From the NCBI RefSeq assembly GCF_900155945.1, contig NZ_FTMN01000013.1, forward strand, positions 1 through 64,000: a stretch of DNA of 64,000 nucleotides. The letters run 5' to 3'. The translations under genes were made by a program, and so were the position numbers. The DNA comes from Marinobacterium stanieri (GTDB taxonomy: Bacteria; Pseudomonadota; Gammaproteobacteria; Pseudomonadales; Balneatricaceae). How positions within the stretch are numbered: position 1 is the first letter of the stretch; each line of letters opens with the position of its first letter. Under the pieces are notes generated by a model. It searched no databases. It had not been told where the DNA came from and worked only from the letters and a program-made list of their open reading frames with translations. This document shows, one piece after another, positions 38,409 through 61,353 of the stretch.

Positions 38409-38432
38409 GTTCAGTCAATTGGTTGACTGAAC
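38409..38432. terminator. hairpin overlapping the dotL stop
   Basis: gttcagtcaa / ttgactgaac, a perfect 10-bp stem with loop ttgg. It overlaps the dotL stop codon and has no T-run, so it may stabilise the mRNA 3' end or attenuate transcription into the gene downstream. Confidence 0.5.
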
Positions 38433-40963: not shown

Positions 40964-40965
40964 GT

Positions 40966-44101: not shown

Positions 44102-44916
44102 CGCATGAAACTCGGTGTTTGAGAGGTCTGATTGGCGTAGCTTAAAGAGCCTGATTCCGCTTTAAGTGAGTCATTCACCAACTGATCCAATTGAATCTGA
44201 TTTTTTCGGTACGCAGCAAAGAGGCCATCCAGAGGAAGTCCATCAGGATGGTTCTGAACGTCTTGAGCTGTTAACTGGCCGATACGCTTTTCTTCAGCAT
44301 TCATGGCGGACAACATCAATTTGGTATGAGATCGCACCAGATTTTCCATCAAGGATGCTTGGTCCTCGCCTGTTTGCTGCTGACCATGAACGGTTAGTAG
44401 CTGTTTGCAGTCATCGAAAATGGTCCGACACAGCTGTTTAGACAACTGAGTAGGGTCGTGCAGCCAGGAAAATTCATTGAGCTTCGCAATGATGAGGGTA
44501 TGGGCCGACGTAAATGCCATTTTGGTCCGAACACCAGGAGAAGGACGAGGCTGGGATAAACCGGCCTGAACCTGGAGGGATTTCATGAGATCACTGACAT
44601 CGGAAAGCCAGTTCAACTTGATGGCACCGTAAACTCTAACGTCATCTGCTGCGAGTGGAATGATCGCAGAACGGATCGTAGCCCGTTGCCACGCCTCTCC
44701 GGGGAGTTCAATGCCGGTGTCAGTCAAAAGGGAATCGATTGCTGATTCAACTTGATTCAGAAGTGACGGCATCTCATCGGGCTTGCCGCCTGCGGCTATG
44801 TGTTCCATCCGGGCCGAAATAACGGGGGAATAGACTTTGACGAGGTGCATCCTCGGGCGGATTGAGGAGGTAACGAATTCCTTAGAGTGCAAGCCGTCTA
44901 AAAGGCTCTGGCTCAT
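44098..44916 (-). CDS. cytoplasmic helical protein of the coupling operon, unknown
   Basis: 272 residues, mainly helical, no signal or membrane segment, no known motif. It overlaps the membrane-protein gene by 4 bases and is 12 bp from the zinc-ribbon gene. A helical stretch (LMENLVRSHTKLMLSAMNAE) is near the C-terminal third. A cytoplasmic adaptor for the coupling complex, in the place that DotN/IcmS/IcmW have in Legionella, is possible but not supported by sequence. Confidence 0.7.
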   Translation of the reverse strand: MSQSLLDGLHSKEFVTSSIRPRMHLVKVYSPVISARMEHIAAGGKPDEMPSLLNQVESAIDSLLTDTGIELPGEAWQRATIRSAIIPLAADDVRVYGAIKLNWLSDVSDLMKSLQVQAGLSQPRPSPGVRTKMAFTSAHTLIIAKLNEFSWLHDPTQLSKQLCRTIFDDCKQLLTVHGQQQTGEDQASLMENLVRSHTKLMLSAMNAEEKRIGQLTAQDVQNHPDGLPLDGLFAAYRKNQIQLDQLVNDSLKAESGSLSYANQTSQTPSFMR

Positions 44917-44928
44917 AACTGCCCTCCA

Positions 44929-45507
44929 TTATTTGTCGGAGTTGAGGCCTTCAGCCAATACAGACATCGTGATGTTGTGCAGATCGCTAATAACTGGGTT
45001 TTCACGGTCGTGAGTACGCGAGAAATCGATCATCTTCTTCACGACATGGTTGAAGATCACCAACGCCGCTTTAACGTCCATGGTCGATTCAGGGTCAACG
45101 CTGATGTAGTAGCAAGTTGAGGCCAGCATCTCATTAGGAGTTGTGACTTCACCAACGGAAAACAGATAGGGATGGTTAGGATATGCCAGGTGCGCTGCTT
45201 GAATAACGCGGGTCATGATGATGGGCAAAAGGCCGGTAGGCAGTGCGGCTTCATCTATGTCGAATTCGGTCACGCCGTACATGACGCCTTCGATGTCGGC
45301 AGCTTCTGCACGTTTCTGGAATGTGCGTGAAACCAACTCGATCATCATACGGTGCTTATCCGAAACGGTATTGCCGCAGGAATGGCACACCAAGTTGCGG
45401 TTACGCAGATCTTCGTTAAGTTCACTACCACACGAGCAGGGGAAGATTAATGCTGGGAAAAAGTTACCCAACATTTCTCTCTCGATGGCATTCACAGAAG
45501 ATGTCAT
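44929..45507 (-). CDS. zinc-ribbon protein, first gene of the coupling operon
   Basis: 192 residues. The N-terminal CSCGSELNEDLRNRNLVC then HSCGNTVSD has four Cys in a CxC...CxxC ribbon. The rest is a compact alpha/beta domain without known family. It follows an operator-rich promoter. DotN (IcmJ), a zinc protein of the Legionella coupling complex, has similar Cys pairs and is also part of the DotL complex, so a DotN-like role is possible; the resemblance is only in size and Cys content. Confidence 0.7.
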   Translation of the reverse strand: MTSSVNAIEREMLGNFFPALIFPCSCGSELNEDLRNRNLVCHSCGNTVSDKHRMMIELVSRTFQKRAEAADIEGVMYGVTEFDIDEAALPTGLLPIIMTRVIQAAHLAYPNHPYLFSVGEVTTPNEMLASTCYYISVDPESTMDVKAALVIFNHVVKKMIDFSRTHDRENPVISDLHNITMSVLAEGLNSDK

Positions 45508-45667: not shown

Positions 45668-47845
45668 TCATGAAGGCTTATTATTTGAGGTTTTCGGCGG
45701 GAAGTGCTTGTTTGCACACATTATATACCGTCTATCTGTATGGTGTCGCGTTTTAGAGACATTCTTAAGGTTTCTTTTTCTCATTCTCGTTTTGAAAGGC
45801 TCTCCGCAGGTAGGACAAGGGGTACCATCACCAGCGAGTGGTTCTACCGGTTTTCCACCATCATCTGCTACATAGTTACGGCAGTCATCATCGGTACACA
45901 TCCAGAAAAACATTCCCTTGTTGGCTTTACTCTCACGACGAATCATCACTGATTCGCATGAGGGGGCAGAGCAGGGAACAGCCATTGGGTTGCGTTCAAG
46001 CTTCAGAGCTGTCGCCTTTTCACATTGGGCACTAATCCAGGTCTTCATGTTGTTCATGAAGGCATCAGGTTCTTGGCGCCCCAATCGAATCTTGTTAAAG
46101 CTTATTTCCCACAGCGCTGTAAGATCCGGCGATGTCAGCTCTACAGGTAAAAGAGATCTGACCTGCCGCCCAAGCTTGGTGGGTCTCAACGTTTTATCGG
46201 GGTAGAGAGACAGGAATTTGCGTTTTTGCACCAGTAGATCGACATAGGTGTGTCGCGTGGCACTGGTACCCAGGCTGGCGTTGTCCTTCAGACGTTCCTT
46301 AAGCCGTGGGTCTGAAAGATGGCCAGAGGCATTCTCCATGATTTTCAGTAGTCGAGATTCAGTCATCCGTGCTGGGGCACGTGTTTTTTTGGCCTCAAGC
46401 CGGATACTTTCAATTGTGAGGCTCTGCCCCTTAGTTAGAGTGGGGAGTGGCTGTCGGTCGTCTTCGTCTCCTTGTAGAGGCTGTACCTGTGTCCAGCCGG
46501 CCTGATCAACGGTTACGCCTTTTGTCTGGAATTGCTGCCCTCCGATCGAAATAGCGGCTGTGGATGATGTACTAATGTAGTCCGGATAAAACTGGGCAAT
46601 GAGCCGCTTGGCCACTGCCAGGTATATTTGGCGAGAGGCCGAATCGAAATTGCCCCAGTTAGGGAGTGAGCTTGTCGGGCTATTCGCCGGGTGCTCTGTG
46701 ATTTTTGAACTACAAAAGCTGCTGGGTCGAAGATTTTTATTGGCACCCGCGACCAATGGCGCCAGCTCCTCATCCTTTGCAAGAGCATCAAACAACTGAC
46801 CAATCTTGGTAAGTTGTTCATCCTCATAAAATGTATCGTCCGTGCGGGTGTAGGTCAGATGCCCGGCTTCATACATTTCCTGATACTTGGCAACAACTTC
46901 AGCCGCAGACATATCTGATACACCGCCCATATAGATACACAGGTTTGTCAGGTTAAATGGGGTCGGAGGGTGTCTGGTGTGTGTGTTTGAGCTGATAGCA
47001 GAGACTTTGGCACTCTGGCCTTGTAGTTGCCCCATGATAGTTTGTAGCGCATCGCGATCGGTACAGTGCTTTCCATCCAGCAGCTCTTCGGGAATGACTA
47101 ACTCAGCTGTCAGGCGGGTGCCGTCCGCGGTTACTAAGTCAGCCACCATGTCGTAATAGTGACCTGACTTGAATGCGAGCACTTTGTCTTCGTGATCCAC
47201 ACAAATAGCCAGCAAGGCGCTTTGAACGCGGCCGGCACTGGCTAATACGTTATAACCTGCCTTCCTAGCTAAGCGGGTGTACGCGATAGTCAGATTGATA
47301 CCAATAAGCCAGTCCGACTTCATACGTGCCAGGCCAGACAGCTTGTGTCCCTGATATTTCATCAAGTCATTGGACTCAATACTGGACAGGGCACTTTTCA
47401 TTGCCTCAATTTCTTGTGCACTGCTCCAGAGCCTATAGGTAGGACCAGACCAATTGTTTTCGCTCAGGAAAATTTCGGCAATGATTTGTCCTTCTTGACC
47501 TGCATCGGTTGCGATGACGACTGAATTAGCTTCCGTTAACAAGCTGGACATGGCCGCTCTTATCTTCACCAGGTGTTCCATATCAATTGGTTTGAAACGG
47601 AATGGCTCTGGTAACAGCGGTAACGGCATGTTATTCCAGCCAACGGCCCACTCTGGGCGATAGTCGGCCGTGTCGTACAGGGTATAAGCGTGACCTGCCA
47701 GCCAACCGACAGCCCAGCCATTACCCCGTATCATTTGTGCGCCTTTCTCTTCCCTCGGGCAAGGCACGCCCTGACGGGCGGCCAAAGCCTGTGCAATCAC
47801 TCGGCCCATTTTCGGCTTTTCAGCCATGTAAACTTGCAAACCCAT
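45668..47845 (-). CDS. topB: DNA topoisomerase III (type IA)
   Basis: 725 residues. An N-terminal TOPRIM domain has AEKPKMGRV and ATDAGQEGQIIAEIF. The core has the SAGRVQSALL motif and the catalytic Tyr in LTYTRTDDTFYEDE (~residue 330). Two C-terminal zinc knuckles are visible (CSAPSCESV...CTDDDC and CPTCGEPF...CANKHF). Plasmid topoisomerases such as TraE of RP4 remove DNA links during transfer or replication. It starts directly after the giant protein gene with no gap, so both are in one operon. Confidence 0.94.
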   Translation of the reverse strand: MGLQVYMAEKPKMGRVIAQALAARQGVPCPREEKGAQMIRGNGWAVGWLAGHAYTLYDTADYRPEWAVGWNNMPLPLLPEPFRFKPIDMEHLVKIRAAMSSLLTEANSVVIATDAGQEGQIIAEIFLSENNWSGPTYRLWSSAQEIEAMKSALSSIESNDLMKYQGHKLSGLARMKSDWLIGINLTIAYTRLARKAGYNVLASAGRVQSALLAICVDHEDKVLAFKSGHYYDMVADLVTADGTRLTAELVIPEELLDGKHCTDRDALQTIMGQLQGQSAKVSAISSNTHTRHPPTPFNLTNLCIYMGGVSDMSAAEVVAKYQEMYEAGHLTYTRTDDTFYEDEQLTKIGQLFDALAKDEELAPLVAGANKNLRPSSFCSSKITEHPANSPTSSLPNWGNFDSASRQIYLAVAKRLIAQFYPDYISTSSTAAISIGGQQFQTKGVTVDQAGWTQVQPLQGDEDDRQPLPTLTKGQSLTIESIRLEAKKTRAPARMTESRLLKIMENASGHLSDPRLKERLKDNASLGTSATRHTYVDLLVQKRKFLSLYPDKTLRPTKLGRQVRSLLPVELTSPDLTALWEISFNKIRLGRQEPDAFMNNMKTWISAQCEKATALKLERNPMAVPCSAPSCESVMIRRESKANKGMFFWMCTDDDCRNYVADDGGKPVEPLAGDGTPCPTCGEPFKTRMRKRNLKNVSKTRHHTDRRYIMCANKHFPPKTSNNKPS

Positions 47846-50800
47846 TTACACACCCAAGCTCATTGTTTGTTCCATCTGTTTCTGCCGATCGATAGCTTCA
47901 TTCGCTGCATCGATCTCTTCTTGAGTCAGGACTTGGCTTTCCAGATTACGATTAACCTCAAGCTGGTTCAGAATCTCTTCAAATTCATGAATCACTGACT
48001 TGTCTGCAGGCGGCATAGAGTCTTCGAGTTTGCGTACTTCGATGTTGATCTCAGTTTGCTTGGCCAGCAGCGCATCCAATTCGTCTTGTTTCTGATAGGG
48101 GGCCTTAACAATCTCCAAAGCCGTATCCAGTTCGTGATTGAGAGACGTGAGCTGGTTGTTGACTGTTTCCAATCGCATTGGCATTTCCTGAATCTTCTTG
48201 ATCAGATTGGTCGTAAAGATTTCAGGGCCTTTGGTCAGTGGCGTGCTGCAGCGAACCGGTCCGTTCCACTGGACATGAATTTTGTCGTTTTTGAGTACGG
48301 CAACGACTGGGTACCCTTGAATAGAGCCAAGTTGGGTTTCCCCTATGAAGCCTCCCGCCAGCATTGAATGAATGCGTAAGCCTGCTTGCTTCGGGTTGTC
48401 CATCTTGGAGTCACCCACGATCATTTCGAAGCGTTCTGGAATGCCGGCATCTATCGCCTTGGTAAGCGCAACTTTCTCTTCTTCCCAAGATGGCATGACC
48501 ATATCTCTGATTTGGTTTGCCGTAGAACGTGCGTTGCGGACTTTACTGATATGCCCTCTGCGTTGGAGTTCGGCCTGCTCGACTTGCATATCAATTTCCA
48601 CTTTATCTCGAATAATCGGGTTGCCCGTGGTGATGGCCATGATTTCAGCCAATGTTGGTTCCACGTCTTCATCCATAGAGCGAGCTGCCTTGTCCGGATT
48701 CGACATAGCCTGAGTAATGAACTTCAGCTTGCGAATGACCGTCTCCAGCATGAACAAGTCAAAGCTGTCTTCGGTGGTGTAGTAATGGATGTTTACGTTA
48801 TCGAACAGGTTGCCCTGGCGCTCGAAACGCTTGATACGCTGCTCCAGGTCGGTAGGTCTCCAAGGCACATCCAGCATGTGAAGATCTGACCCACGGGTCT
48901 GAACGTTTGTACCTACACCCGCTTTATCAGTGCTGGCCAGTAGTATCCTGACTTCTCCGTTGCGCACACGCTCAAAAAGAGCTTCCTTCTGAGTCGGATT
49001 CTTCGCGTCATGTATGAAGGCAATTTCATCAGCCGGCACACCTTGAGCAATCAACTTGTTCTTGATGTCGTCATAGAGGTTAAAGCCCTTTTTGGGCGTG
49101 CCTCGGTCAAGGAAAATGAGCTGGGTACGGCGGTCGCTTTCATGCTCTTTCCATTTCCCCAATACATTAGCAATACACTGATTTACCTTGCTGTTCGGAT
49201 CGTCAGGCAGGTCCTCATCAATCAAGCGAAGATCCAGCGAACCCAAGCGACCCGCGTTTGAGATGGATAACAGATTATCTTCCCAAGGCTCTTTGTCTTG
49301 GTTACGAACCAGTTGTGCTCGATGCCCCAGCCAGTCCATGAACTTCTTCATCATGCTGCTTTGCTTGGCCACATGTTTAACATCATTGCGGCCAGGCTTC
49401 GGCAGCTTGAGGTCATCGCCTGTTTTGATGTCGGCAACAGAGCGGAAGATGCGGATCATTTCGGGAACATTGTGGAAGCGGCTCAAGCGTTCCTTGATCT
49501 GGTACCCACCACCCTCTGGCTTAAGCTCAACATGCTCCACTACTTCGCAGAAGTTTGCTGCGAACGCATCGAATTGATACAAGCCTAGATCTCGCAGGGT
49601 TTGAGGTGCAGTAATTCTCAGCATCACCCAGATTTCGGTCACCGAATTGGTGATCGGAGTGCCTGTGGCGAGGTATACACCCTTCTGATCACCGCGTGAC
49701 TGGCGAATAAAATCTGCCTTCATCACCGCATCCTGGGCGCGGCCGGATGTCACGCTATTAACACCTGCGACACCGCTCAGAGACGTTGGAGGTGCATAGT
49801 TTTTCAGGTAGTGGCCTTCATCGTAGAAGAGGCCATCAAAGCCGCATTCAGCAAAGGAAATAACATTCTCGTCATAGTTATCCTTAGCTTTTGCTGTTAC
49901 CTGCTTAAGTTTAGCTTCCAGTTTTTTGATACTTGTTTCCAGGTTACGAATGGCAATTCGATCCTGGCTATTCGTACTGACCAGTGCACCCCTGTATTCA
50001 TCCAGTTCATCTTCAATCTGCTGCTGAATGAACTCATCCTGGAGCGCCATGCTGGCGAACATGTTGTGGGTACAGATAACCATGTCCCACTGGTTCATCC
50101 GAACTTTGTTGGCGAAGACTGCCCTGCCTTCCGCCGTGAAGTCCTCTGGCGTGGCCGTGAGGATTCTGGCGCCAGGGTAGAGGTCACGGGCTTCGTTGGT
50201 GGCTTGCTGCAGCATGTGGTTTGGAATGACAACCAATGGGCGATTGGCGACCCCCAAGCGACGAAGCTCCATTGCTGAAGCAATCATCTCAATGGTTTTA
50301 CCGGCACCGGCTTCATGGGCAATCAGTACGCCTCGGTTGGACGTGATGATGCGTTCAACTACCGCAGGCTGATGATCATGCAGTTTTAGTGGGCGCCCCT
50401 TCAGCACACCGGTCATGCCGGGAAAGGTCAGATAGGATCCATCATATTGAGCTTCACGGAAGGAGTTGAAGGTGCGGTTGTACGCATCCTGCAGACGTGA
50501 AGAATGGAAGGACGAATCCTTAACGAAATCGGCAAACTCACGAATGATTTCGTTCTGACGCGATCGTGCCAGCTGAGTCGCTTCGTGATCGATCGTCCCA
50601 TTAGGGTTATTGACGGTGGGGCGCTTCAGATTCAGTGCAAGGTCCACGAGCTTAGCAAACGTGAACTCTCGGGTGCCGTGCTCCAGTGTATTGGCACTAT
50701 GGCAAATGCTTTTACCCCTGCCAGTTAATCTCAAGTCCCAATGGTTCGTGACAGGAACGTGTGTCAGCTGAATCTCGCCATTTATGTTAAGCGGATTCCC

Positions 50801-53800
50801 CTCAGTTAGGGTGCATGCCACAAAGTCTCGAACGGTTTCTGGCGGAATCCAATTGGCGCCCAAGCGGATGTGGATCTCATCAATCCCAATGGCCTCGGGT
50901 ACCGCTTCATTGAGCGCCTTAACGTTTCGCTCCAGGCTTGGGTCCTGTTTGGCAGCACGCTCAGCGATTTCAAGTTTTTCGTAGATGTTGCCGGACAGGT
51001 AGAGTGCTTTGATCTCCCAACGACCCGTTTCGGGCTGTTTGAAGCAATGTGGCTGCAGCTGCTCTTCTACCTCTGAAACCGTCAGGTTCAGGGTATCGGC
51101 AAGCAATGAGGCATCAACAAAACCTCGGACGTTCATAGAAAACGCAATGCCGTCTTCTATGTTGGTTACGTCACTGGAAGCGCCGACGTTTATTTGAGTC
51201 AGCGGTGTCGTGAATATGTCGGCCTTTGAGTAGGCACCTGTATCCGCGTTGCCTTTCTCAAGCGCCAGCACCAGGTACTGATCTGGATCACGCTTCAGAA
51301 GGTTCTTGTTACCGCGACCGTTGAGGTACCCATGATGCTTTACGAACTCATCGTAGCGAGCGTTGAGCGTTTCTCTTGCGGCTTCGGCTGCAGGGACATC
51401 ATTCTGGTTTTCGGCGTCCAATAACTGCAGGAGGGCGTCTCGAACTGCAATAAGCCTCGGCATTTTGGTTTGAGCAGACTTGGATACCTCGATAGGGCGC
51501 AGTCCATTCGCTTCCAGAATCGCCAGTGTTGTGTCTGTTACGACATAACTACCGATCTTATTGTCAGCAAAACGAGGATCGACCAGTTGGCGTGTTTGAT
51601 CCTCTCGTGCATGACCGGGGTGTTCATGAGGATTCATAGCCCCAGCGGGGACCATATTGAGAAGCGCATCCCAGTCGATGTCTTTATGGCTACCGCTGAC
51701 ACTTAGGCCAGGACCAAATCGGCCTTCTTTCCATGTAACTTCACCCAGAATGCGATCGGGATTACTGGCAAAGTAGCTGTTTATCTCTTTGGTAATGGGT
51801 TCAGCATCTTCATCCGCATTAGGATCGGGATACACCAGAGTTTCGGTGTTCACCCAGGTGGTATCCCCCTGCAGCTCCCCAGGATGCCGTTTCCGGAAGA
51901 ACAAAATGTCAGTTACCACTTCGGCACCTTCAGACTTAAAGGTGTCAGCGGGTAGGCGGAAACCGGCAACGAGGTCAGATGAGGCCGCTACCTGTTTGCG
52001 TATAGAAGCATTCTTTTTGTCCATCGTCCCAGAAGACGTTACGAATGCGACGATGCCGCCAGGCTTGGCCAGTTCTATAGATCGTTTAAGGAAATAGTCA
52101 TGTACCAGGCGTTGGCGCTTATCCTGAGGATCATAGACGGTGAAATCACCATACGGAGGATTACCAACAACCAGATCCTGAGACTGGCGCGGCAATACAA
52201 CATCCTCAAAACCTGAGTTATAGACCCTAGCTTCAGGGTACAGCCAGGATGTGAGGGTCGCTGCAAATGGATCCTTCTCAACGGCGGTTATTTCGGCATG
52301 TTCACGAAGAGCCTTCGGAGCCAGGCCAACAAAGCGTCCATTTCCCACGGAGGGTTCTGTAATGTGGAGACGATGCTTGAGATCATTCATGCCCAGCTTG
52401 TCCAAAGCCGAGTACATGAAGTCTATTACGGTAGTTGAGGTGTAGTACGAATCGACTGTTGAGGCTCTGATGCCATTGGCGGCAGCTGAGTCCACGGCCT
52501 GTAGGGCGCTAAATGCTTTGCTGAGTTCCATTGCGCTGGTATCGGGATACCGGCCACTCAAGACGGTTGTGATTGCAGGCGAACCGGTACCGGAAAGGGC
52601 AGCCAGCATTTGGCGCTGGGCGTCATTTGGTTCGATATCGTCTTTTTTCAGGCCCACGTACACGAGAATAGCTGCAGTGAGGCGATTACGTATTTCCGAG
52701 TCGGACAGGCTCTCAAGAGATTTCAGGGACTCGCTAGGATCAAAGTTTACCTCCCGAAGTGGTGCTATTGGCAGTGTTACAGTATCTGATTCATCAGCGC
52801 GGTATGTGCTTCCTCCAGATATTGTTGCAGCTTCGCTTCCCAGCTCGCCAGCTGTTGGAAGTCGCTTGTTTCCGGCCTTGGGTTCAGTTGTCGGTAATCG
52901 ATCTCGTACACTTCCAGCTTCTTGTCGATCATGATCGCGTTCGTTTTCAACCAGGTTGTCATGTTGCCTTCCCTGTTCAAAGCTGCGATCTGCCCCTGTG
53001 TCAGTTGCCTGTAGATTGTCCGGGCCGTTGGGGCTAGGTTGTGAAAGTCTGTTGGTGCGTTCTCCATCTTGTTGCTCCTTCAAAATTGCATCATCAAGGT
53101 GTTTGGTAAACAGCTGGCGCATGCTGCCAAAGATGGCCAGTTCACGTTGTGTTGCCTGGCCGGACTGAACAACCAGATCTAGTTCTTTGCAAGTTTCCAG
53201 CGGGCGGCCGTGCCCAAATCGATATGCCAGCATCATAGTGGCATCGTGGTCGCTTAGCCTATCAAGTTCCTTTTTAAACTGGGCAGCGGAAATGCTTTCC
53301 CAATCTACGACCGGTGCGTCCTCAACAGCCGTCTGAGTATCTTCAAGCGTGCTATCTGACAATACTGCCCAAGGGGCAGGGTCTGTTGCAGGAGTAGAGG
53401 GTGAATCAGAAACGGGGATACCCGGCAGTTCGTCAGGGGCAGGATCAGCAACAGTAAAAGACTCGGAATTCGAATTGTTCTGCTCATCTTCAGCAACTTC
53501 TGGCTGTGCTTTTTCAATGGCCTCATTGGCCATAGCCATGTGTTCGTTATGTAGCGTATCCCCTAAAGACACATTCAAGTAAAAATTGGTGTTGTAGTAA
53601 TCACTTTGGCGATCAGACTTATCGTAGTTGTACGCTTCAGCCTGGGCCGTTAACCAACGTTCGATTGCTCTGAATTCAGGTATGTAGATATGAGGTGCGT
53701 GATAGCTTGACTCATCAGGGTTGTCTTTACGCCATTGAGCCCATTCTTCTGATACAGCCTGCATCCCCTCGGGCAGACCGGTAACGCGAATAGAGATGCT

Positions 53801-56800
53801 GGATGAAGAACCTTTAGTAATGGATACCTTCACCCCTTTAGGTAATTCACCGGACGATTGTGCAGACTTGATCGTTTCACGCAGGCGTCTATTTATCTCA
53901 GAAACATCGTGGAGCGTGGAGCCATTCTCGCCTGTTTTCAGCAAGCTACCGTAAGGTGGAAGCTTGTCCATTTTGGTTAGGGTTTCGTGCTTCTGAGCAA
54001 CAGCGTTGATCTCGGCGGCCAGGTTATCTACAAGCGACTCATCGTTGATCTGCCCAGTAACAGTAAACTGCTCCGAACTACGAGCGTATCGACCCGTGTC
54101 GGATAGGTACAGATCCATTCTGACTTCGCCACTGTCGCTGATTTCGGCTACCGGTACCAGTAGGGTATAGGGGCCAACATTGCGCAGCGCGATTGCTGAA
54201 CGTTCTTCGTTTGTATCCGGGACGAACCCATCCAGTTTGGCCAAGATCTTTTGGCTTAACTGGTACTCGGGGCTATTTGTGAACGCCTCTTCTTGCTCCC
54301 GTTGCAGCTGGTCGCGAATTCGATCGATCAAATAGCCAGCAGCACTTTCCGAGATAGAAAGGTGCTCGGCAATGGCCTCACAGGACTCGGTGTATGAGCC
54401 AGCGTCACGGTAAATGGATTTGAGCGTATCCGTGAGCTCAATTTCGGAGACCTGGTACTCAAGTTCAGCAAGCTCCTCCCGCCAAACACTCAGTACCCGG
54501 CTATCATTTGTACCCAGGTGCTGTTCATGGGCGCCGGCTAATAGCCCGTGGATTTGAGTCTTGAGTGCAAAAATGCGTTCACTGGTATTCAGCTCGGTAC
54601 AAAGCTGGTTCGCCATGTGTGAAGCTTGATCGGATAGACCATGCTCCAAGGCGTTTTCCAGAATACGAATTCCCACTTTGAAGCCGCGACGCTTCGCTTC
54701 CATCAGCGCACGTTCAACCGTACTGGTTTCAGGTACTCGGCTCAGCATGTCGAAGAACAGCACGTCATTGATGCTTTGCAGGGTATCTTCGGACGCTTTC
54801 CAGGGGTCAATATCGATGACCTCAGAAAGGTATCCATTCAGACGGTTTACCATCTGGAAGAAGCCATTTTCCGAGAGCACAAGGCCGCCCTGCAGGGCTT
54901 TTTCTTGTAGCGCCTTAAATGCGTCCATGACGCCGGCTTCCATGCGGCGAGTCTTCAGCGAGGTGACATTTCCCATTCGTTCTCGCTCACGGTCCAGTTC
55001 AACATACTGGATAGCAAGGTTACGAATCTCATCCATGGAAACACCGGCCTGTTCGGCCTGGCTCACCATTTCGTCAATTGCTTTTGTATCTAACTCTACT
55101 TCCGGGACTTTGCGTTGAGGATGCAGTTGCAAAACTGTCGTTGGCGCTGATTGCCCTTGCTGGTCCTCACTTTGAACAGGACGGCCTTCTGCAGCAGCTG
55201 TAGCATCATCCCATTGATCGCGTGTAATCAATGACTCGCCTTGGTTATAGAGGCTGACTAGGGCTTCAAAGCGAGACACAGTCACGAACATGCTTTCGAT
55301 CCGATGCTCATCATGCACCTTGATCACAGCACGGCCGTCCGCATCAAAATCAACCAAGATGTCAATCTGGTTGAAGATAGAGAACTCACCAGGCTGAGGC
55401 ACCTCCCACTGGTCAGGGCCGGTTTGAACGGAGCCTGCAGGACGATCATGCTCTGCGGGTTCAGCGGGGGCTTCCTGATCATGCTTCACAAGTGAAGCGT
55501 CAACCGAGTCGAATTCTGCTACAGAGCCGTTCTGGGCGCTTGTTTCTGGCTTAGATGGCTTTTGTTCAGATTGCAGCTCATCCAACAGGGTAAGCAAACC
55601 ATCCGTTTCCTCAGTGGTCAGACGCTCATCCATGGCAACCTGGTCGCGGAATCCCGGTTGCAGAGCCATGACAGGGTTGTCCTCAATCCAATCGAAGTAT
55701 GACTGGTACTGAGCACTGGGAGAGTATGCCTCAGTTGCTTCAATGACAGTTTCGCTATCGATACCAGCTGTGTCGTCATGCCCAGGTTGCGGCGTTTGTA
55801 TTGGCGACTCTTCAGGCTCTGAAGTATCAGCTTCACCCTGATCGAATTCAGACTCCAGCGTCACGTCCACTATTTCTTGCTCCGGTGCTTCGACGGAGGA
55901 CGTTTCAGCGGTATCAGTCTCAGAAGGGTCTGCAGTTTTTGAGGCTACTGGATCTGTTGAACGGGATGGTGGCAGCTGTGCCTCATCTACGATTGCATCA
56001 AAATCTAACGAGCTTTCCTCGGTCGCAGTAGCGGGACTCTCGTGAAGCGCAGGTCCCTCAGTGGCCAATTCAGCCTCATGATGTACTTCGCTGGATGATT
56101 CAGGCTCTGCAGACAGTGCCTCCAGTGTTGCTACTCGGTTTTCCAGAATGTCTGCAGGCGTTGCTCTCAGGGCAGCTTGCGGAGAAGCAGCCGTGTAGTC
56201 CGGTAGGGCACGTAGACCCATGGGAGTTTCAACCGCAGGTGCAAATATCCGCTCAGATAGCTTTATGACCAGTTTGCCATCTTGTTCCAGAACCCCACCC
56301 ACTTGGGCGCCAGCAAACACTGCTCGCTCATCTTCAAGCAAAGCATCGTGTTTGGCATGAAAGTCCGGGCTATGAAAGAGCAGGCGCACTTGGCCCGGTG
56401 TATTTAACCGTTCCAGGGTTGCATGCAGGTGTTCATCAAAAGGGGCTGTCGCGATGCGGGAGTTTAATTGGGTACCGTTGTCACGAAACCACCCCAAAAG
56501 GTTTTCACCTGCAGGAGGCAGATTGCCACGGTACTCCATGGCACGGATGCCGGGAGCAACTTCGATATCAACAGCCCGGCGCTGAAGCACATTGAGGAAG
56601 TGGTTTTTGGTGTGAACCACGCTATCCATACGCTGGGTGTTATCCAGCTCAATAAGGGGGAAAGCTGCTTTCAGTGCCTTTAGATCCAGGTGCTCTAACG
56701 GAGCCACCCACACCCCTTGCTGAGACAACTTAAGCCCGGACTGTTCCAACGCCATCTTCTTGAAGGATGCGGCATCGCCGGCACCAAACAATATGAAAAC

Positions 56801-56890
56801 GGTTCTACCGTTGATTTCATGCAAATTTGCAGACAGATTATCGTCTGTAGCCTGATTGTGGGCATCGAACGAAACGAAACTGATTTTCAT
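47846..56890 (-). CDS. giant DNA methyltransferase-helicase fusion (DarB-like polyvalent protein)
   Basis: 3014 residues. Residues ~1-230: unknown domain. ~230-560: acidic, Glu/Ser/Pro-rich, probably disordered. ~600-1150: helical regions. ~1490-1690: N6-adenine methyltransferase with SVGNGRFVGLAPKAL and NPPYGDF (~1580). ~2170-2700: SF2/SNF2-like helicase with AHEAGAGKTIEM (Walker A ~2195), FYDEGHYLKN (DEGH, ~2357), YLATGTPITNSV and the C-terminal motif DLEQRIKRFERQGN (~2687). The end is a coiled coil. The same methylase-helicase order is found in P1 DarB, which enters the recipient and protects DNA from restriction. It lies between topB and a Q/P-rich protein. Confidence 0.9.
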   Translation of the reverse strand: MKISFVSFDAHNQATDDNLSANLHEINGRTVFILFGAGDAASFKKMALEQSGLKLSQQGVWVAPLEHLDLKALKAAFPLIELDNTQRMDSVVHTKNHFLNVLQRRAVDIEVAPGIRAMEYRGNLPPAGENLLGWFRDNGTQLNSRIATAPFDEHLHATLERLNTPGQVRLLFHSPDFHAKHDALLEDERAVFAGAQVGGVLEQDGKLVIKLSERIFAPAVETPMGLRALPDYTAASPQAALRATPADILENRVATLEALSAEPESSSEVHHEAELATEGPALHESPATATEESSLDFDAIVDEAQLPPSRSTDPVASKTADPSETDTAETSSVEAPEQEIVDVTLESEFDQGEADTSEPEESPIQTPQPGHDDTAGIDSETVIEATEAYSPSAQYQSYFDWIEDNPVMALQPGFRDQVAMDERLTTEETDGLLTLLDELQSEQKPSKPETSAQNGSVAEFDSVDASLVKHDQEAPAEPAEHDRPAGSVQTGPDQWEVPQPGEFSIFNQIDILVDFDADGRAVIKVHDEHRIESMFVTVSRFEALVSLYNQGESLITRDQWDDATAAAEGRPVQSEDQQGQSAPTTVLQLHPQRKVPEVELDTKAIDEMVSQAEQAGVSMDEIRNLAIQYVELDRERERMGNVTSLKTRRMEAGVMDAFKALQEKALQGGLVLSENGFFQMVNRLNGYLSEVIDIDPWKASEDTLQSINDVLFFDMLSRVPETSTVERALMEAKRRGFKVGIRILENALEHGLSDQASHMANQLCTELNTSERIFALKTQIHGLLAGAHEQHLGTNDSRVLSVWREELAELEYQVSEIELTDTLKSIYRDAGSYTESCEAIAEHLSISESAAGYLIDRIRDQLQREQEEAFTNSPEYQLSQKILAKLDGFVPDTNEERSAIALRNVGPYTLLVPVAEISDSGEVRMDLYLSDTGRYARSSEQFTVTGQINDESLVDNLAAEINAVAQKHETLTKMDKLPPYGSLLKTGENGSTLHDVSEINRRLRETIKSAQSSGELPKGVKVSITKGSSSSISIRVTGLPEGMQAVSEEWAQWRKDNPDESSYHAPHIYIPEFRAIERWLTAQAEAYNYDKSDRQSDYYNTNFYLNVSLGDTLHNEHMAMANEAIEKAQPEVAEDEQNNSNSESFTVADPAPDELPGIPVSDSPSTPATDPAPWAVLSDSTLEDTQTAVEDAPVVDWESISAAQFKKELDRLSDHDATMMLAYRFGHGRPLETCKELDLVVQSGQATQRELAIFGSMRQLFTKHLDDAILKEQQDGERTNRLSQPSPNGPDNLQATDTGADRSFEQGRQHDNLVENERDHDRQEAGSVRDRLPTTEPKAGNKRLPTAGELGSEAATISGGSTYRADESDTVTLPIAPLREVNFDPSESLKSLESLSDSEIRNRLTAAILVYVGLKKDDIEPNDAQRQMLAALSGTGSPAITTVLSGRYPDTSAMELSKAFSALQAVDSAAANGIRASTVDSYYTSTTVIDFMYSALDKLGMNDLKHRLHITEPSVGNGRFVGLAPKALREHAEITAVEKDPFAATLTSWLYPEARVYNSGFEDVVLPRQSQDLVVGNPPYGDFTVYDPQDKRQRLVHDYFLKRSIELAKPGGIVAFVTSSGTMDKKNASIRKQVAASSDLVAGFRLPADTFKSEGAEVVTDILFFRKRHPGELQGDTTWVNTETLVYPDPNADEDAEPITKEINSYFASNPDRILGEVTWKEGRFGPGLSVSGSHKDIDWDALLNMVPAGAMNPHEHPGHAREDQTRQLVDPRFADNKIGSYVVTDTTLAILEANGLRPIEVSKSAQTKMPRLIAVRDALLQLLDAENQNDVPAAEAARETLNARYDEFVKHHGYLNGRGNKNLLKRDPDQYLVLALEKGNADTGAYSKADIFTTPLTQINVGASSDVTNIEDGIAFSMNVRGFVDASLLADTLNLTVSEVEEQLQPHCFKQPETGRWEIKALYLSGNIYEKLEIAERAAKQDPSLERNVKALNEAVPEAIGIDEIHIRLGANWIPPETVRDFVACTLTEGNPLNINGEIQLTHVPVTNHWDLRLTGRGKSICHSANTLEHGTREFTFAKLVDLALNLKRPTVNNPNGTIDHEATQLARSRQNEIIREFADFVKDSSFHSSRLQDAYNRTFNSFREAQYDGSYLTFPGMTGVLKGRPLKLHDHQPAVVERIITSNRGVLIAHEAGAGKTIEMIASAMELRRLGVANRPLVVIPNHMLQQATNEARDLYPGARILTATPEDFTAEGRAVFANKVRMNQWDMVICTHNMFASMALQDEFIQQQIEDELDEYRGALVSTNSQDRIAIRNLETSIKKLEAKLKQVTAKAKDNYDENVISFAECGFDGLFYDEGHYLKNYAPPTSLSGVAGVNSVTSGRAQDAVMKADFIRQSRGDQKGVYLATGTPITNSVTEIWVMLRITAPQTLRDLGLYQFDAFAANFCEVVEHVELKPEGGGYQIKERLSRFHNVPEMIRIFRSVADIKTGDDLKLPKPGRNDVKHVAKQSSMMKKFMDWLGHRAQLVRNQDKEPWEDNLLSISNAGRLGSLDLRLIDEDLPDDPNSKVNQCIANVLGKWKEHESDRRTQLIFLDRGTPKKGFNLYDDIKNKLIAQGVPADEIAFIHDAKNPTQKEALFERVRNGEVRILLASTDKAGVGTNVQTRGSDLHMLDVPWRPTDLEQRIKRFERQGNLFDNVNIHYYTTEDSFDLFMLETVIRKLKFITQAMSNPDKAARSMDEDVEPTLAEIMAITTGNPIIRDKVEIDMQVEQAELQRRGHISKVRNARSTANQIRDMVMPSWEEEKVALTKAIDAGIPERFEMIVGDSKMDNPKQAGLRIHSMLAGGFIGETQLGSIQGYPVVAVLKNDKIHVQWNGPVRCSTPLTKGPEIFTTNLIKKIQEMPMRLETVNNQLTSLNHELDTALEIVKAPYQKQDELDALLAKQTEINIEVRKLEDSMPPADKSVIHEFEEILNQLEVNRNLESQVLTQEEIDAANEAIDRQKQMEQTMSLGV

Positions 56891-56904
56891 AGCGACCCCT
56901 TTAA

Positions 56905-58608
56905 TCAGCGCGAGATGCCACTGGTTGATTCAGCAAACATGGAGTCCACTTCCGACCCCAAAAGCTCCAAATCAAGACCGGAAGAGTTATTTTGCTGCTG
57001 GGGCACCTGGCCATGTACCGGCTCCTTAGCGAAAGCCTCCATGGCGGTGGTGTTCACTTGGGTGTCGTATTCGGGATAGTTATTGGCAACAACATGTAGC
57101 GTGTTGCTCAATACCTCCTGAACAGCATCGTACTGCTCTGCCGGGAATGACCAGGTGCCGTCTGGTAGCTGATTCAAGGTGGCCACTTGGCTAAGGTTTG
57201 AGGCGAAGTAGTTAGCCATTTCATCGCTCATACGGGGTGGTACCAAAATCACTTGTCCTACATTGCCAGGCTCAAGCGAAAACTGCTGTTTTGCCGGTGG
57301 GGGAGCGATCACCGGGGCAACCCGTTCGGTAGGTTGTGCATGTGACTGGACGGGCTGTTGGTTCGCCGGAGTATGAGGAGCCTGATGACCAGTTGCTCGT
57401 GCCATTGCTCTTCGTTGATCTCTTGACGCAACGGCTTGGCCAGCCACACTTTGTGGCTGCTGTGGCTGCTGTGGCTGCTGTGGCTGCTGTGGCTGCTGTG
57501 CTTGCGATGACTCCGCTGGAGCTGGAGCTGGAGCTGGAGAAGGCTGGCTCATCACACCACCGTTTAAATCTCTATCCTGCTGGGTTTCAATACCAGAAAT
57601 TAGAATTGGATTTGAAGGGATTAATGGCGTTGCACGGGTCACGAACAACCCGTTATCTCCAGTTTTACGCAGCGCCACTACGAAGGTTGTGAACCCTGTT
57701 TTATTGGATTTACCAATGACACCCGTTTCAGGATCGATACTGGAGAGATAGCAGGGTTCCATAGGCAACAAGTTGCCTGATTGGCCCTTCTGCATCTTAT
57801 TGGCTGTGTCTTGTTTGGTCTTCGGGCCAGCCGAAAATCGTATCAAGTTGACTATTTCAACCTGGTACTTTTCTGACTGGACCGCTTTGCCAACGACACC
57901 TGCAATACGTGATAGCATCTCATGCCTTCCCGTTCCGGGAGTGGCATACAGCGCCTTGGTTTCCTCAATGCTGGCAGGGCCATACGTATCCTGGCGCCAT
58001 TGGGGAGCAAAGGTTTCGAGGATCGACTTAGACGGCTCGCCATTATCATCAAATTCAATAATGCGAACACCTGCAAGAGGAGAGCCTCCTTTGGAAGCAG
58101 CTGCGGGGGACAAGCCAGCAAAGAATTTTTCATTAAACTCATCGAGTGAGCTGACGGGGCTTGACCCTCTTATCAAGTCCACTGATAAGGACATCTTTCC
58201 ATCATCATGGATGAACGGCGGATTTACTCGCGCACAACCGACCCAGGTCGATCCCTTACTTGCATCAGGGATCATTGTTGATGGCCAGCGTGTGCTGAGG
58301 GTGTAGGCTGCATTGGAATCGATACGCTGTGCTTTTTGGTCTACATAGCAGTTGCTCAGTAACACTGTCCCGCCAATGGCTACACGGCTCTGAACATCAC
58401 GAATTTGGGGCTGGTTGGCTTGGTTTGCGTTTTGGTAAACCAATGCCTCCACATACTCTTTAGTATCCAATCGATACCCCATCACTCGATCCTGATTTCG
58501 ATCACCAGTATTGGATAATTGGTACCCAGTCACACGGAGCGGAATATTCATGCTCGGCGGCAAACTGTTTTGAACACGAGCAGATTCAAACTGATCAAGA
58601 AGGGACAT
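56905..58608 (-). CDS. protein of unknown function with Q/P-rich linker, next to a lambda-exonuclease-type nuclease
   Basis: About 567 residues; an aaagg site favours the ATG at 58608. Residues ~1-340 look like a folded beta-rich domain (IPLRVTGYQLSNTGDRNQDR, VLLSNCYV). Then come an Ala-Pro and a Gln-Gln-Pro repeat (~360-400) and a smaller C-terminal domain with LEPGNVGQVILVPPRMSDEM. Nucleases of the YqaJ/Exo type are usually encoded beside a single-strand annealing protein (RecT, Beta). This gene is 66 bp downstream of the nuclease, so it is a candidate for that partner, though no Beta/RecT signature was seen. It could equally be a ssDNA-binding or structural protein. Confidence 0.7.
   Translation of the reverse strand: MSLLDQFESARVQNSLPPSMNIPLRVTGYQLSNTGDRNQDRVMGYRLDTKEYVEALVYQNANQANQPQIRDVQSRVAIGGTVLLSNCYVDQKAQRIDSNAAYTLSTRWPSTMIPDASKGSTWVGCARVNPPFIHDDGKMSLSVDLIRGSSPVSSLDEFNEKFFAGLSPAAASKGGSPLAGVRIIEFDDNGEPSKSILETFAPQWRQDTYGPASIEETKALYATPGTGRHEMLSRIAGVVGKAVQSEKYQVEIVNLIRFSAGPKTKQDTANKMQKGQSGNLLPMEPCYLSSIDPETGVIGKSNKTGFTTFVVALRKTGDNGLFVTRATPLIPSNPILISGIETQQDRDLNGGVMSQPSPAPAPAPAESSQAQQPQQPQQPQQPQQPQSVAGQAVASRDQRRAMARATGHQAPHTPANQQPVQSHAQPTERVAPVIAPPPAKQQFSLEPGNVGQVILVPPRMSDEMANYFASNLSQVATLNQLPDGTWSFPAEQYDAVQEVLSNTLHVVANNYPEYDTQVNTTAMEAFAKEPVHGQVPQQQNNSSGLDLELLGSEVDSMFAESTSGISR
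57452..57538. repeat. adjacent coding microsatellites (9-bp and 6-bp units)
   Basis: About five copies of tgtggctgc (57452-57500) encode Gln-Gln-Pro on the minus strand; four copies of gctgga (57515-57538) encode Pro-Ala. Lengths are multiples of three, so copy changes alter the linker without breaking the frame. Confidence 0.85.
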
Positions 58609-58674
58609 TGGCTTTACCTTTATTGGTTTCAATCATTATTGGGCTGCCCATAGGGCGCAATTTGAGACCCAGAC

Positions 58675-60159
58675 CTACATGCCCATTACTGATGGGGATT
58701 TAGGTTGGATATCAGGGTGTTTCGACACATCTGGTGCTTGCTCGGCAAGTAGTGAGCGGGTGTGTTTGGCAATCAGCACTTCTTCCAGGCCTTCTGCCTG
58801 CTGAATGAGCGACTGCTGATAAACTTTCGCATCCTTGTTCGTTTTGACGCGGAAAGAGTAATCCTGTTGGGCGAAGGTCTCGGGGGATTCGCCCAACGAT
58901 TCGAGTGCATGCTTAACTTTATCGATGTCGTACCCTGGATCTTTGATGCACTTGTGAAGCAGGTTGTGCTCTTTGAGCACTTCCAAGGTTGCGGATATAT
59001 TCAGACTGCGAGAGTTCAAAGAGCTAACATCTACCGTCTGGGACAGGCTATCCACGTCGATGGAATAACGGGCCAGCGTTGATACAGCCGAATCCATGTC
59101 GAATTTCTCAACGCCCTTGATGTTCAGCTGGGATGTTTCGACGTTGGCAGGATCCACATGCTGTTTACTTAACACGTCCTTCAACTCGTCATATGCCAGA
59201 CTCTTCTGCTCTTCGGCATACCGAGTCATGGCATTCAAGGAAGCAATCCTACTTTCCAGCACTGAGATCCGTTGAGCCGTTTTGCCGCTTGGTGGCTGTT
59301 GCTCTGATTTCTGCGCTGGTCGCACATCGCCATTAACCAGGTTGGTCATGAAGTCATCGCAAACCTGAACGATTGCATCGCGAATAGGGGTCTGTTTGCC
59401 ATAGAGTTCGACCGACAAGTCGGGTTCTACCTCAATGAAATTCACCCGCATGCCAGGCTTTTCCTGCTTAAGCAGACTCACCATCTGATCAACAACCATG
59501 GCGCGGTTGTCTTTCACCATGCTGGTCCATGCCTTTGCCAACTCGACAGGCACATCCAGTTCGGCAATCACCAGACGATCGGCAGGAAATCCTCGGGCTT
59601 CGCCCAGAATGTCGTAGTGATGGACTTGGGACTTGTAGGTAAACAGCTTGTGGTTATCAGAACCGGTGTTTTCGGCTTCGGTTGCGGACATGGGAACCTT
59701 GGTATCCACAAGAATGCGCTGATCATTGAGGGTCCAGTACATGTCCGTATTGCCGGCCATGCTTTGCGGAGAGTCTTCGCAAGGGGTTTGAAGTGCTTGT
59801 TCGGCAGCAACATCCCGGCTGCCGCCATAGATCTTCAGGATTGCTTCTTTAAGTGGGCTTTCAAGCTTGATGCCCCGCATCATGTGAGGCGGAGGCTTAT
59901 CAGGTGTTAGGCGAAACAGCTTCTCTGCGGCAAGTGTGGCCCCAGTTCTACCAAAGGGAGGAGTGAGACCCTGAGCCTCAAGGAGCAACGTTCCAACTTC
60001 AGATCCCCCTACAGCAATCTGACGTTTCAGATGCCATAAGAGCTGTTTATCACCCACTTGTTCATGTGTTTGCCTCAGCCAGTTTTTAACATTGTCATGC
60101 TTTAGCTGAGCACGCTGAGGAAGAGTGGCGAGGATTTCACGAATCAGATCTGCAGTCAT
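58675..60159 (-). CDS. YqaJ/lambda-exonuclease-type nuclease
   Basis: 494 residues. The N-terminal ~290 residues have the PD-(D/E)xK pattern of YqaJ/RecB-like exonucleases: GGSEVGTLL (51-59), MRGIKLESPLKEAIL with E100, AGNTDMYW with D139, ILVDTKVP with D152 and K154, and YKSQVHHYDIL with Q178. The remaining part is a coiled coil and an extra domain not found in lambda Exo (about 225 residues). It ends in SPSVMGM, similar to the tail of the protein at 15.2 kb. Such nucleases resect double-strand ends for annealing-type recombination. First gene of the operon. Confidence 0.83.
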   Translation of the reverse strand: MTADLIREILATLPQRAQLKHDNVKNWLRQTHEQVGDKQLLWHLKRQIAVGGSEVGTLLLEAQGLTPPFGRTGATLAAEKLFRLTPDKPPPHMMRGIKLESPLKEAILKIYGGSRDVAAEQALQTPCEDSPQSMAGNTDMYWTLNDQRILVDTKVPMSATEAENTGSDNHKLFTYKSQVHHYDILGEARGFPADRLVIAELDVPVELAKAWTSMVKDNRAMVVDQMVSLLKQEKPGMRVNFIEVEPDLSVELYGKQTPIRDAIVQVCDDFMTNLVNGDVRPAQKSEQQPPSGKTAQRISVLESRIASLNAMTRYAEEQKSLAYDELKDVLSKQHVDPANVETSQLNIKGVEKFDMDSAVSTLARYSIDVDSLSQTVDVSSLNSRSLNISATLEVLKEHNLLHKCIKDPGYDIDKVKHALESLGESPETFAQQDYSFRVKTNKDAKVYQQSLIQQAEGLEEVLIAKHTRSLLAEQAPDVSKHPDIQPKSPSVMGM

Positions 60160-60235
60160 TGTCTGTATATCATATAGTGTATATATACGAATACTATCAC
60201 TTTTAATCAGAACTCGGTAAACCCCCGCAGGCTAT
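60160..60235. promoter_or_regulatory. AT-rich promoter region of the nuclease operon
   Basis: Contains gtatatcatatagtgtatatatacgaatactatc-like sequence: overlapping AT palindromes and atactatc at 60191-60198, shared with the dotA divergent region. Expected to drive the minus-strand nuclease-methylase-topB operon; no exact -10/-35 was fixed. Confidence 0.4.
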
Positions 60236-61222
60236 TTAGAGATCCATTTCGTCTTTGATCATCTCAAAGAGCTTAGAATCTGATCCATTCACTGCAGTAA
60301 TCCCCCCCTTTGGACTCTCGAAAAGAGTCACTGGGGTACCGCGATCATTAAGGCGCATATAAAGCTTCTGCGCATCTGCCATCGACAGCGCAACATCATT
60401 TGTCGCAATCAAACTCTCGCGTTCAATGGCCGTTTTGGGGCTCTGCATGAGTCGATCCAGGTATGAAAGACGCTCTGCTTGATCGGGCTGATGGAGCGCA
60501 ATGTGGCTCACGGTTGGATTGCGCGTGACGCTATAGATGGGGATCCAGTGAAAGGTGAATTCACTCTGATGACTCTTTGAGTACTTGTATTCAGAGCGAC
60601 AGTGAGGGCAGTTAGGGTCTGTGAAAACATATACATGGCGTGGTCCATTACCTGTCGTAATAGCGCTGACACCCTTAAGCGCAGCCATATACTCTTCTGG
60701 GTTAAGAGTGCCGTGCTTTTCACTGCTCGCCAGCTTATCCGGAGTCAAACGGTAATCATCAAATATACTGGGCTCCACAGTTGGCGCTTGTACAGCGGAG
60801 CTGATGACTGGTTGAGAGTTTGTTATCAACGAAAATTCCGGCACTTCAGGCGCTTTCATTTCAGTGGCTAAACGGTTGGCAGCATTTACGCCTGGCTCAG
60901 GCTTAACAATAGGCCCCATGATCATGTGCTGACCGTCAGGAAGCATGATGGCAAATGATGCTTTCAAATCTCCTGGAACCATGTAAGTCACCAGTGTGCT
61001 GGCATTCAAGACGGCTGAGACTTGGCTGCTGGGAGATGATGCATAGAAAGCCTCTACCGACATGATGCTGGCTTTCGGGTTCTGAGCCTTCAAAAGAGCC
61101 ACTGCACGATTCTGTGTAGCCTCCGGAACGCCGGCAGCCAGCGTACAGGTTGCCGAGGATGCTAAAGCGCAAGCGGTAACCATCCTTAAAAAATACTTTC
61201 GAACAGCCTGTGTAATGCCCAT
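60236..61222 (-). CDS. DsbC/DsbG-like thiol-disulfide protein (TrbB-like)
   Basis: About 328 residues from the ATG at 61222 (gcagg upstream; GTG at 61237 is in frame). A signal peptide (MVTACALASSATCTLAAGVP) is followed by an N-terminal dimerisation-type region and a thioredoxin fold with the CPHC active site in FTDPNCPHCRSEY and the cis-Pro loop near GTPVTLFES. IncI plasmids carry TrbB, a DsbC-like enzyme needed with TrbA/TrbC. The several Cys-containing secreted proteins of this window are plausible substrates. Divergent from the dotI operon. Confidence 0.85.
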   Translation of the reverse strand: MGITQAVRKYFLRMVTACALASSATCTLAAGVPEATQNRAVALLKAQNPKASIMSVEAFYASSPSSQVSAVLNASTLVTYMVPGDLKASFAIMLPDGQHMIMGPIVKPEPGVNAANRLATEMKAPEVPEFSLITNSQPVISSAVQAPTVEPSIFDDYRLTPDKLASSEKHGTLNPEEYMAALKGVSAITTGNGPRHVYVFTDPNCPHCRSEYKYSKSHQSEFTFHWIPIYSVTRNPTVSHIALHQPDQAERLSYLDRLMQSPKTAIERESLIATNDVALSMADAQKLYMRLNDRGTPVTLFESPKGGITAVNGSDSKLFEMIKDEMDL

Positions 61223-61353
61223 CTTGCCTGCCCCCACGCCAAACCCCCTTTGATTTATATTAGGTACAAAAACAGAAAATCACATATTTCGTATATGTAA
61301 CCAATATAGTATATTTCTCGCACTTTGAGCAATCTAGCTTTCTGGGGGGTTTA

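Follow-up and report, generated by a model that had tools for sequence, protein, structure and literature searches.

Why would a conjugative element keep a nuclease, a glutamine- and proline-rich protein of no recognised family, a giant methylase-translocase and a topoisomerase together in one compact row, and what would these proteins do there? The question is raised by a 64,000-nucleotide stretch of Marinobacterium stanieri DNA (hereafter, the window), which opens a contig of 119,136 bp (C3, NZ_FTMN01000013.1) in a genome of 4.68 Mb. Four large genes, referred to here as exo, mid, hel and topB-like, lie co-oriented on its minus strand, separated by successive gaps of 66, 14 and 0 bp, exactly as the initial annotation had described them. 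Downstream, on the same strand, follow DotM- and DotL-like genes, so that the module sits within a block of transfer genes belonging to a region of type IVB (Dot/Icm-like). The row encodes proteins with catalytic motifs and recurs elsewhere with strongly diverged sequence. The four genes probably form a common toolkit for handling the DNA of the element around transfer. Whether they make up a module by which type IVB conjugative plasmids and elements process their DNA, in recombination or repair around conjugation, appears to us evenly balanced on the sequences considered below. The four genes are the following (aa, amino acids).

58675-60159, minus strand: exo, 494 aa, predicted lambda-Exo/YqaJ-type PD-(D/E)XK nuclease
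56905-58608, minus strand: mid, 567 aa from the ATG, Q/P-rich protein, with a TTG at 58632 as an alternative open start
47846-56890, minus strand: hel, 3014 aa, predicted adenine methylase and SNF2-type SF2 protein, DarB-like polyvalent protein
45668-47845, minus strand: topB-like gene, 725 aa, predicted type IA topoisomerase

Recurrence of the gene row

The order exo-mid-hel-topB is shared by the window, Neptuniibacter, Amphritea (locus L010) and Marinobacterium (L011, in which part of mid reads N). It is also present in Marinimicrobium (L012), with genes of 313 aa and 1599 aa inserted between mid and hel; here, hel extends to ~5,300 aa, and exo and mid lie outside of L012, where they were reached by extension of the locus (L094, 1-8300). 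Over the best local stretches, identities between the window and Neptuniibacter, Amphritea, Marinobacterium and Marinimicrobium are, in this order, 45, 47, 36 and 31% for exo, 35, 33, 27 and 23% for mid, 48, 49, 44 and 39% for hel, and 50, 49, 36 and 33% for topB. All four proteins thus yield the same similarity ranking, with Neptuniibacter and Amphritea ahead of Marinobacterium and the latter ahead of Marinimicrobium, as expected if the genes travel together, and conservation of the gene order despite such divergence makes a chance arrangement unlikely. The notion of a single module, put forward in the initial annotation, is borne out in this respect.

The hel family is far wider than the module. 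When genomes were scanned with the core of the helicase, 80 loci of 342 relatives were covered, many of which end at contig ends, and in 76 of the 80, mostly from Firmicutes, neither exo nor mid was found in the part covered, apart from weak exo-like matches in L034 and L068; topB is present in L064. In Marinobacter halodurans (L053), exo is located ~7 kb downstream of hel, and topB was not found in the locus. Exo and the mid profile each matched 1 of the 369 genomes of the window's class, namely, the window's own, which was also the only one with mid among the 96 genomes in the set of relatives. A first genome scan with exo as the query returned no match, phage records contained no exo match, and relatives of exo and mid were not found in viral collections by pattern-based scans, which can miss diverged relatives.

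Plasmids offered a richer sample. Among the 72,556 records of PLSDB, tblastn retrieved 11 with the exo of the window and, at E<=1e-6, 20 with that of Stutzerimonas, including the former 11; the neighbourhoods of all 20 were viewed. The initial annotation had proposed such a survey, with rare co-occurrence of the genes as the outcome that would count against a module, and in every one of the 20 plasmids, the stretch viewed around exo also encodes a giant SF2 protein. In 9 plasmids (Neptuniibacter, four Pseudomonas aeruginosa including Rms163, P. mendocina, Stutzerimonas and two Marinobacter), the latter protein belongs to the methylase-SNF2 type, counting Rms163, where the gene is unannotated and was assigned by position and size. 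In the other 11 (two Variovorax, two Alteromonas, two Vibrio nigripulchritudo, Cupriavidus and four Achromobacter), it is of the Strawberry-notch type by annotation, and a Pfam scan of 5 of these 11 proteins gave no methylase match. In 14 of the 20 plasmids, exo, a middle protein and the SF2 protein are encoded in a row; one small gene separates mid from hel in three of the P. aeruginosa plasmids and two small genes do so in Rms163. In 8 of the 20, a topoisomerase gene adjoins the SF2 gene or is separated from it by one small gene (Vibrio).

Type IVB genes or MPF_I typing were found for 19 of the 20 plasmids; in the second V. nigripulchritudo plasmid, the transfer part falls outside the stretch viewed, and its near-twin carries DotA/TraY. 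In six plasmids, dotD is the gene directly after the SF2 gene. The initial annotation had considered the combination unusual for a type IVB element; for this exo family, the opposite holds. As a separate observation, MOB-suite types 19 of the 20 exo-bearing plasmids as 'non-mobilizable', though nearly all of them show type IVB genes.

The nuclease

By its sequence features, exo is a lambda-Exo/YqaJ-type nuclease and a predicted 5'-3' exonuclease. The protein from the window gives a weak match to the RecE-like family phrog_434 (7.8e-6) and none to YqaJ (PF09588) in Pfam. The latter family is matched by 5 of the 7 members of the exo alignment at E<=0.1 (best, 2.5e-9) and, among further relatives, by the Vibrio protein (4.7e-4) and not by that of Alteromonas. 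Residues E100, D139 and D152-x-K154, which we take to be the PD-(D/E)XK catalytic motif, are invariant in all 7 aligned proteins, as are G51-G52-S53-E54. Searched against PDB sequences, the exo profile had no convincing match (best E 0.26). The earlier assignment to YqaJ/Exo nucleases is favoured by the aligned relatives and the catalytic residues and not by a family match of the window protein itself.

The middle protein

No match to mid was obtained at E<=0.1 in Pfam, NCBIfam, PHROGs or PADLOC, including the SSB family PF00436 of Pfam. Its sequence can be divided into three parts.

57574-58608, minus strand: conserved N-terminal part (residues 1-345), strand-rich, from the alignment; predicted local distance difference test (pLDDT) of the model 50.5
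57289-57573, minus strand: P/Q-rich linker (~residues 346-440), its end set by eye
56929-57003, minus strand: acidic stretch at residues 536-560, close to the C-terminus, with a net charge of -5

Proline and glutamine account for a fraction of 0.30 over residues 346-517 versus 0.12 in the N-terminal part, and the linker is clearly enriched in these residues in 9 of the 11 mid homologues whose C-terminus can be read. Across the same 11 homologues, the most acidic 25-mer within the last 70 residues has a net charge of -5 to -13; values of -9 or below occur in 6 of the 11 versus 4 of 161 control open reading frames (ORFs), the controls being other ORFs of 300-700 aa from the same elements, which may include the Alteromonas and Vibrio versions of mid. 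A globular N-terminal part followed by a linker and an acidic tail is a layout common in single-stranded DNA-binding proteins.

Profile comparisons, in which the mid groups were set against 67 protein families from the same elements (3 of the 67 being mid groups), relate the window group to the Alteromonas/Vibrio group (probability 87-92%) and to the Pseudomonas group (71-90%, with 5 versus 3 N-terminal parts); an earlier comparison of the latter pair, with 2 versus 3 full-length sequences, gave 6%. The family next in score, at 28%, was that of the gene immediately preceding hel in two Marinobacter plasmids; the remaining families reached at most 5.6% and reversed controls at most 0.4%. The Marinobacter gene, which precedes the methylase-SNF2 gene (L003, 40-1347; L106, 759-2396) and encodes a P/Q-rich linker and a strongly acidic tail, is a weak candidate for a fourth version of mid.

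The genome of the window contains no RecT, ERF or Rad52-type protein (PF03837, PF04404, PF04098) at E<=0.01, and its sole SSB match (PF00436) is located on another contig, which makes mid the natural candidate for the role of partner. The suggestion of the initial annotation that mid serves as the annealing partner of exo is accordingly retained as a possibility, and the protein matches no known single-strand annealing protein or SSB family.

Several results argue against assigning mid to this role. The charge of -5 in the mid of the window is ordinary, given that 49 of the 161 control ORFs reach -5 or lower, and the acidic stretch stops 6-40 residues short of the C-terminus. Models built from three sequences each have low pLDDT values (46.0 for the full-length protein and 50.5 for the N-terminal part), and neither has a significant structural match by Foldseek. 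The Pseudomonas and Alteromonas/Vibrio groups do not match each other (at most ~4.7%), and the middle protein of betaproteobacterial plasmids (~250 aa; four Achromobacter and Cupriavidus members found by search, Variovorax members placed by position) shows no detectable relation to mid in profile comparison. Furthermore, Amphritea and Marinobacterium with the module also encode RecT on another contig, so that mid need not be the sole annealing protein there.

Some candidate assignments were discarded. The acidic tail was dropped as an SSB-like mark of the window protein, its value being ordinary by comparison with the control. LEF-3, a baculovirus single-stranded DNA-binding protein, occupied Foldseek ranks 1-3 with the first model, with non-significant scores (E 0.045-0.16, probability at most 0.10), and it did not recur with the second model, for which the PDB matches were unrelated proteins and a comparison with viral structures gave no significant match (best E 0.0064). 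Strand patterns judged by eye had suggested an oligonucleotide/oligosaccharide-binding (OB) fold; because of the low pLDDT values and the non-recurring LEF-3 match, an OB fold is not claimed. Against PDB sequences, the mid profile reached a best E of 2.6 with five sequences and had no match with 12, whereas the best match of the Pseudomonas version was a hypothetical protein (0.066); PHROG scans of the mid versions returned nothing better than 0.048. A domain common to the C-terminal part of mid and the N-terminal part of hel (GxWxxP motif) received an hhalign probability of 2%.

The methylase-translocase and the topoisomerase

The description of hel as a methylase joined to a helicase proved correct. 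Pfam recognises an Eco57I-type methylase (PF07669, 1.1e-6), an SNF2-related domain (PF00176, 1.5e-9) and Helicase_C (PF00271, 1.6e-7), as well as PF04851, and residues 1262-2966 match phrog_10089, 'DarB-like antirestriction', with 1075 bits. The combination by which we recognise DarB-like proteins, an NPPY-motif adenine methylase and an SNF2-type SF2 protein in one chain, is present in hel.

51731-52453, minus strand: methylase region of hel (~residues 1480-1720), with motif IV NPPYG at residues 1577-1581
48812-50389, minus strand: SNF2/SF2 translocase region of hel (~residues 2168-2693), with AGAGKT and DEGH motifs

The topB-like protein matches PF01131 (E=5.6e-83) and contains 13 Cys residues and an LTYTRTD motif, of the kind that holds the active-site Tyr; this simple pattern is present in 4 of the 8 topoisomerases compared. 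It falls under the NCBIfam cut-offs for TopB (383 versus 515.75 bits for TIGR01056 and 445 versus 597 for NF005829). From its family matches, it is a type IA topoisomerase related to TopB; of the earlier label, topoisomerase III, the type stands and the narrower name does not reach these cut-offs.

Surroundings of the module

The row is bordered by further genes of the transfer region and by a thioredoxin-like gene.

38411-45507, minus strand: seven more co-oriented genes downstream of the topB-like gene (ORF list and Pfam)
41366-42733, minus strand: DotM-like gene, within this block (Pfam)
38411-40963, minus strand: TraG/DotL-like coupling protein gene, within the same block (Pfam)
61670-63450, plus strand: DotI/IcmL- and DotH/IcmK-like genes (PF11393, PF12293), divergent from the module
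60236-61237, minus strand: thioredoxin-like gene upstream of exo (sub-threshold Thioredoxin_2 match in Pfam)

A gene of similar size takes the place of the thioredoxin-like gene in Neptuniibacter, Amphritea and Marinobacterium, as judged by position and size. Two related AT-rich sites flank it in the window (60167-60188 and 61291-61312) and are possible operators; the pattern was derived from the site at 61291-61312, so that only the one at 60167-60188 is independent (3 mismatches; 0.03 matches expected). Elsewhere in the window, 25115-27901 on the plus strand encodes a further protein of the polyvalent type, 928 aa in length, with LPD1 as its C-terminal domain.

Positions 1-100 of the window and the last 100 bases of the contig (C3, 119037-119136) are inverted copies, perhaps of a mobile-element repeat. 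No overlap was found between the contig ends, and both a plasmid and an integrated element are possible. Beyond the window, the contig carries an LmuB-like defence gene (2.9e-161) and a GajA-GajB pair (1.3e-235 and 7.7e-211) at L100 3792-9901 (C3 107792-113901), as well as a row of four genes at L098 12214-18649 (C3 76214-82649), the first of which encodes a 1241-aa protein with a P-loop recognised by eye; PADLOC had no match for any of the four.

Comparison with known systems

Pairs of an exonuclease and an annealing protein, and DarB-like proteins, are already known, each separately. According to passages of PMC3118119, the SXT/R391 conjugative elements carry a ssb-bet-exo operon, in which an exonuclease of the lambda-Exo/YqaJ superfamily is encoded together with Bet and Ssb, single-stranded DNA-binding and annealing proteins, both of which stimulate it in vitro. 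In the row described here, by contrast, the partner matches neither the Bet nor the Ssb family, the row continues with a giant SF2 protein and a topoisomerase, and transfer is of type IVB. The joining of an adenine methylase and SWI2/SNF2 in one giant protein is likewise reported, in the parts of PMC5512222 and PMC11109961 that concern P1 DarB and polyvalent proteins; here, it belongs to a conserved row with exo and mid, throughout which the methylase is not universal. For DarB-type proteins such as hel, the inference given in PMC5512222 is counter-restriction through methylation and translocation, and the same text mentions Strawberry-notch SF2 proteins in conjugative elements. The latter occupy the same slot as hel in 11 of the 20 related plasmids and differ from it in belonging to another SF2 family, without a methylase match in the five scanned. 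As for nucleases of this type on other mobile elements, a YqaJ-like recombinase is described at the border of a defence hotspot in the LESGI-1 islands of P. aeruginosa (part of PMC12629846), its likeness to exo being one of description only.

The topoisomerase of the row differs from the conjugative-plasmid TopB in falling below the NCBIfam cut-offs and in abutting a methylase-SNF2 gene, and resembles it in being a type IA topoisomerase on a conjugative element; genes for topoisomerase III (TopB) occur on conjugative plasmids. Among the papers listed by literature searches, we recognised no description of the whole combination, as judged mainly by titles and the beginnings of abstracts.

Discussion

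How could these proteins work together? Where duplex DNA of the element is broken or linear, exo would resect its ends 5' to 3', whereupon mid may coat the exposed strand and assist its annealing, in the role played by Bet and Ssb or by RecT beside other members of the exo family. The giant SF2 protein would travel along duplex DNA and clear it of bound proteins, and the methylase of hel, where present as in the window, could mark the DNA against host restriction. The topoisomerase might remove joint molecules or tangles. Taken together, these activities would allow the element to be repaired, recombined or closed into a circle again around conjugation, for example, once host restriction has cut it, with no need for the host's own initiation of recombination. 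The module may act in the donor or, as the initial annotation proposed, on the DNA that enters the recipient. The occurrence of the Strawberry-notch type in the slot of hel in over half of the plasmids suggests that the shared job of this slot is duplex translocation rather than methylation; modification of the incoming DNA, which the initial annotation had named among the tasks of the module, would therefore be an addition confined to some of its versions.

A more far-reaching proposal would be that these genes constitute an undescribed recombination-protection system of type IVB elements that lack a recognised relaxase, in which exo, a new class of single-stranded DNA-binding or annealing proteins, an exchangeable translocase and, often, a topoisomerase ensure rescue and re-circularisation of the element's DNA at the time of transfer, independently of host RecA. 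We regard this version as doubtful.

Part of the evidence weighs against a DNA-processing module. The 20 plasmids are not independent and correspond to roughly a dozen lineages by eye, with close copies among the four P. aeruginosa, the two Alteromonas, the two V. nigripulchritudo and three of the Achromobacter plasmids. In 4 of the 20 (Alteromonas and Vibrio), exo faces away from mid, and in the 2 from Marinobacter, it lies 8-9 kb from the SF2 gene, with transfer genes among those between, although the weak mid homologue remains directly upstream of the methylase-SNF2 gene in both. In 12 of the 20, the stretch viewed showed no topoisomerase next to the module, so that the topoisomerase step is not universal. 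Neither an oriT nor a relaxase was identified, and a search for the PF03432 relaxase in the genome of the window was negative; possibly, these plasmids carry an unrecognised relaxase family.

Other explanations have to be set beside the DNA-processing module. If protection from restriction came first, hel would be a DarB-like polyvalent protein, perhaps a secreted one, and the other genes accessory. Its extensive match to the DarB-like PHROG and the intact NPPYG motif agree with this idea, as does the proposal, in the part of PMC5512222 dealing with them, that the methylase-SWI2/SNF2 pairs widespread in phages and conjugative elements serve counter-restriction. Against it stand the 11 of 20 exo plasmids with a Strawberry-notch protein in this place, the five scanned being without a methylase match, and passages of PMC11109961 in which the action of P1 DarB is described as undefined and the effect of cloned darB is attributed to Chi sites in the DNA. 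Overall, we consider this explanation rather unlikely.

Two further explanations appear to us more improbable still, and about equally so. The genes could maintain the element during vegetative replication, through end processing, multimer resolution and fork restart, their position in the transfer block being historical. A topoisomerase, an exonuclease and a translocase would indeed suit work at forks or on multimers, and a replication initiation gene lies near the module in two Alteromonas plasmids, but such a role would leave aside the type IVB genes or MPF_I typing of 19 of the 20 plasmids, the dotD gene that comes next after the SF2 gene in six of them and the co-orientation of the module of the window with DotM- and DotL-like genes. 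Alternatively, mid, instead of being a partner that binds DNA, could act as an adaptor or as a secretion chaperone, from which the coupling complex would receive the giant SF2 protein, consistent with the long P/Q-rich linker of mid, the type IVB genes nearby and the weak Marinobacter homologue, which stays with the SF2 gene and not with exo. The large N-terminal part of mid, which can be aligned across divergent elements, and its position beside exo, in the same slot as Bet in SXT, argue instead for a partner of the nuclease.

For the preferred reading, a DNA-processing module around conjugation, the broader message is that relatives of exo and giant motors recur together next to type IVB transfer genes, in Gamma- as well as in Betaproteobacteria. 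This pattern suggests that conjugation of this kind constantly requires the processing of ends and translocation along duplex DNA. The same recurrence points to an uncharacterised protein family, represented by mid, as the partner of exo, and new pairs of an exonuclease and its partner are useful in genome engineering. Finally, with the mechanism of DarB-like proteins still called undefined in 2024 (in part of PMC11109961), the exchange of methylase-SNF2 and Strawberry-notch proteins in one slot amounts to a natural experiment on which of their two activities, translocation or methylation, is the conserved one.

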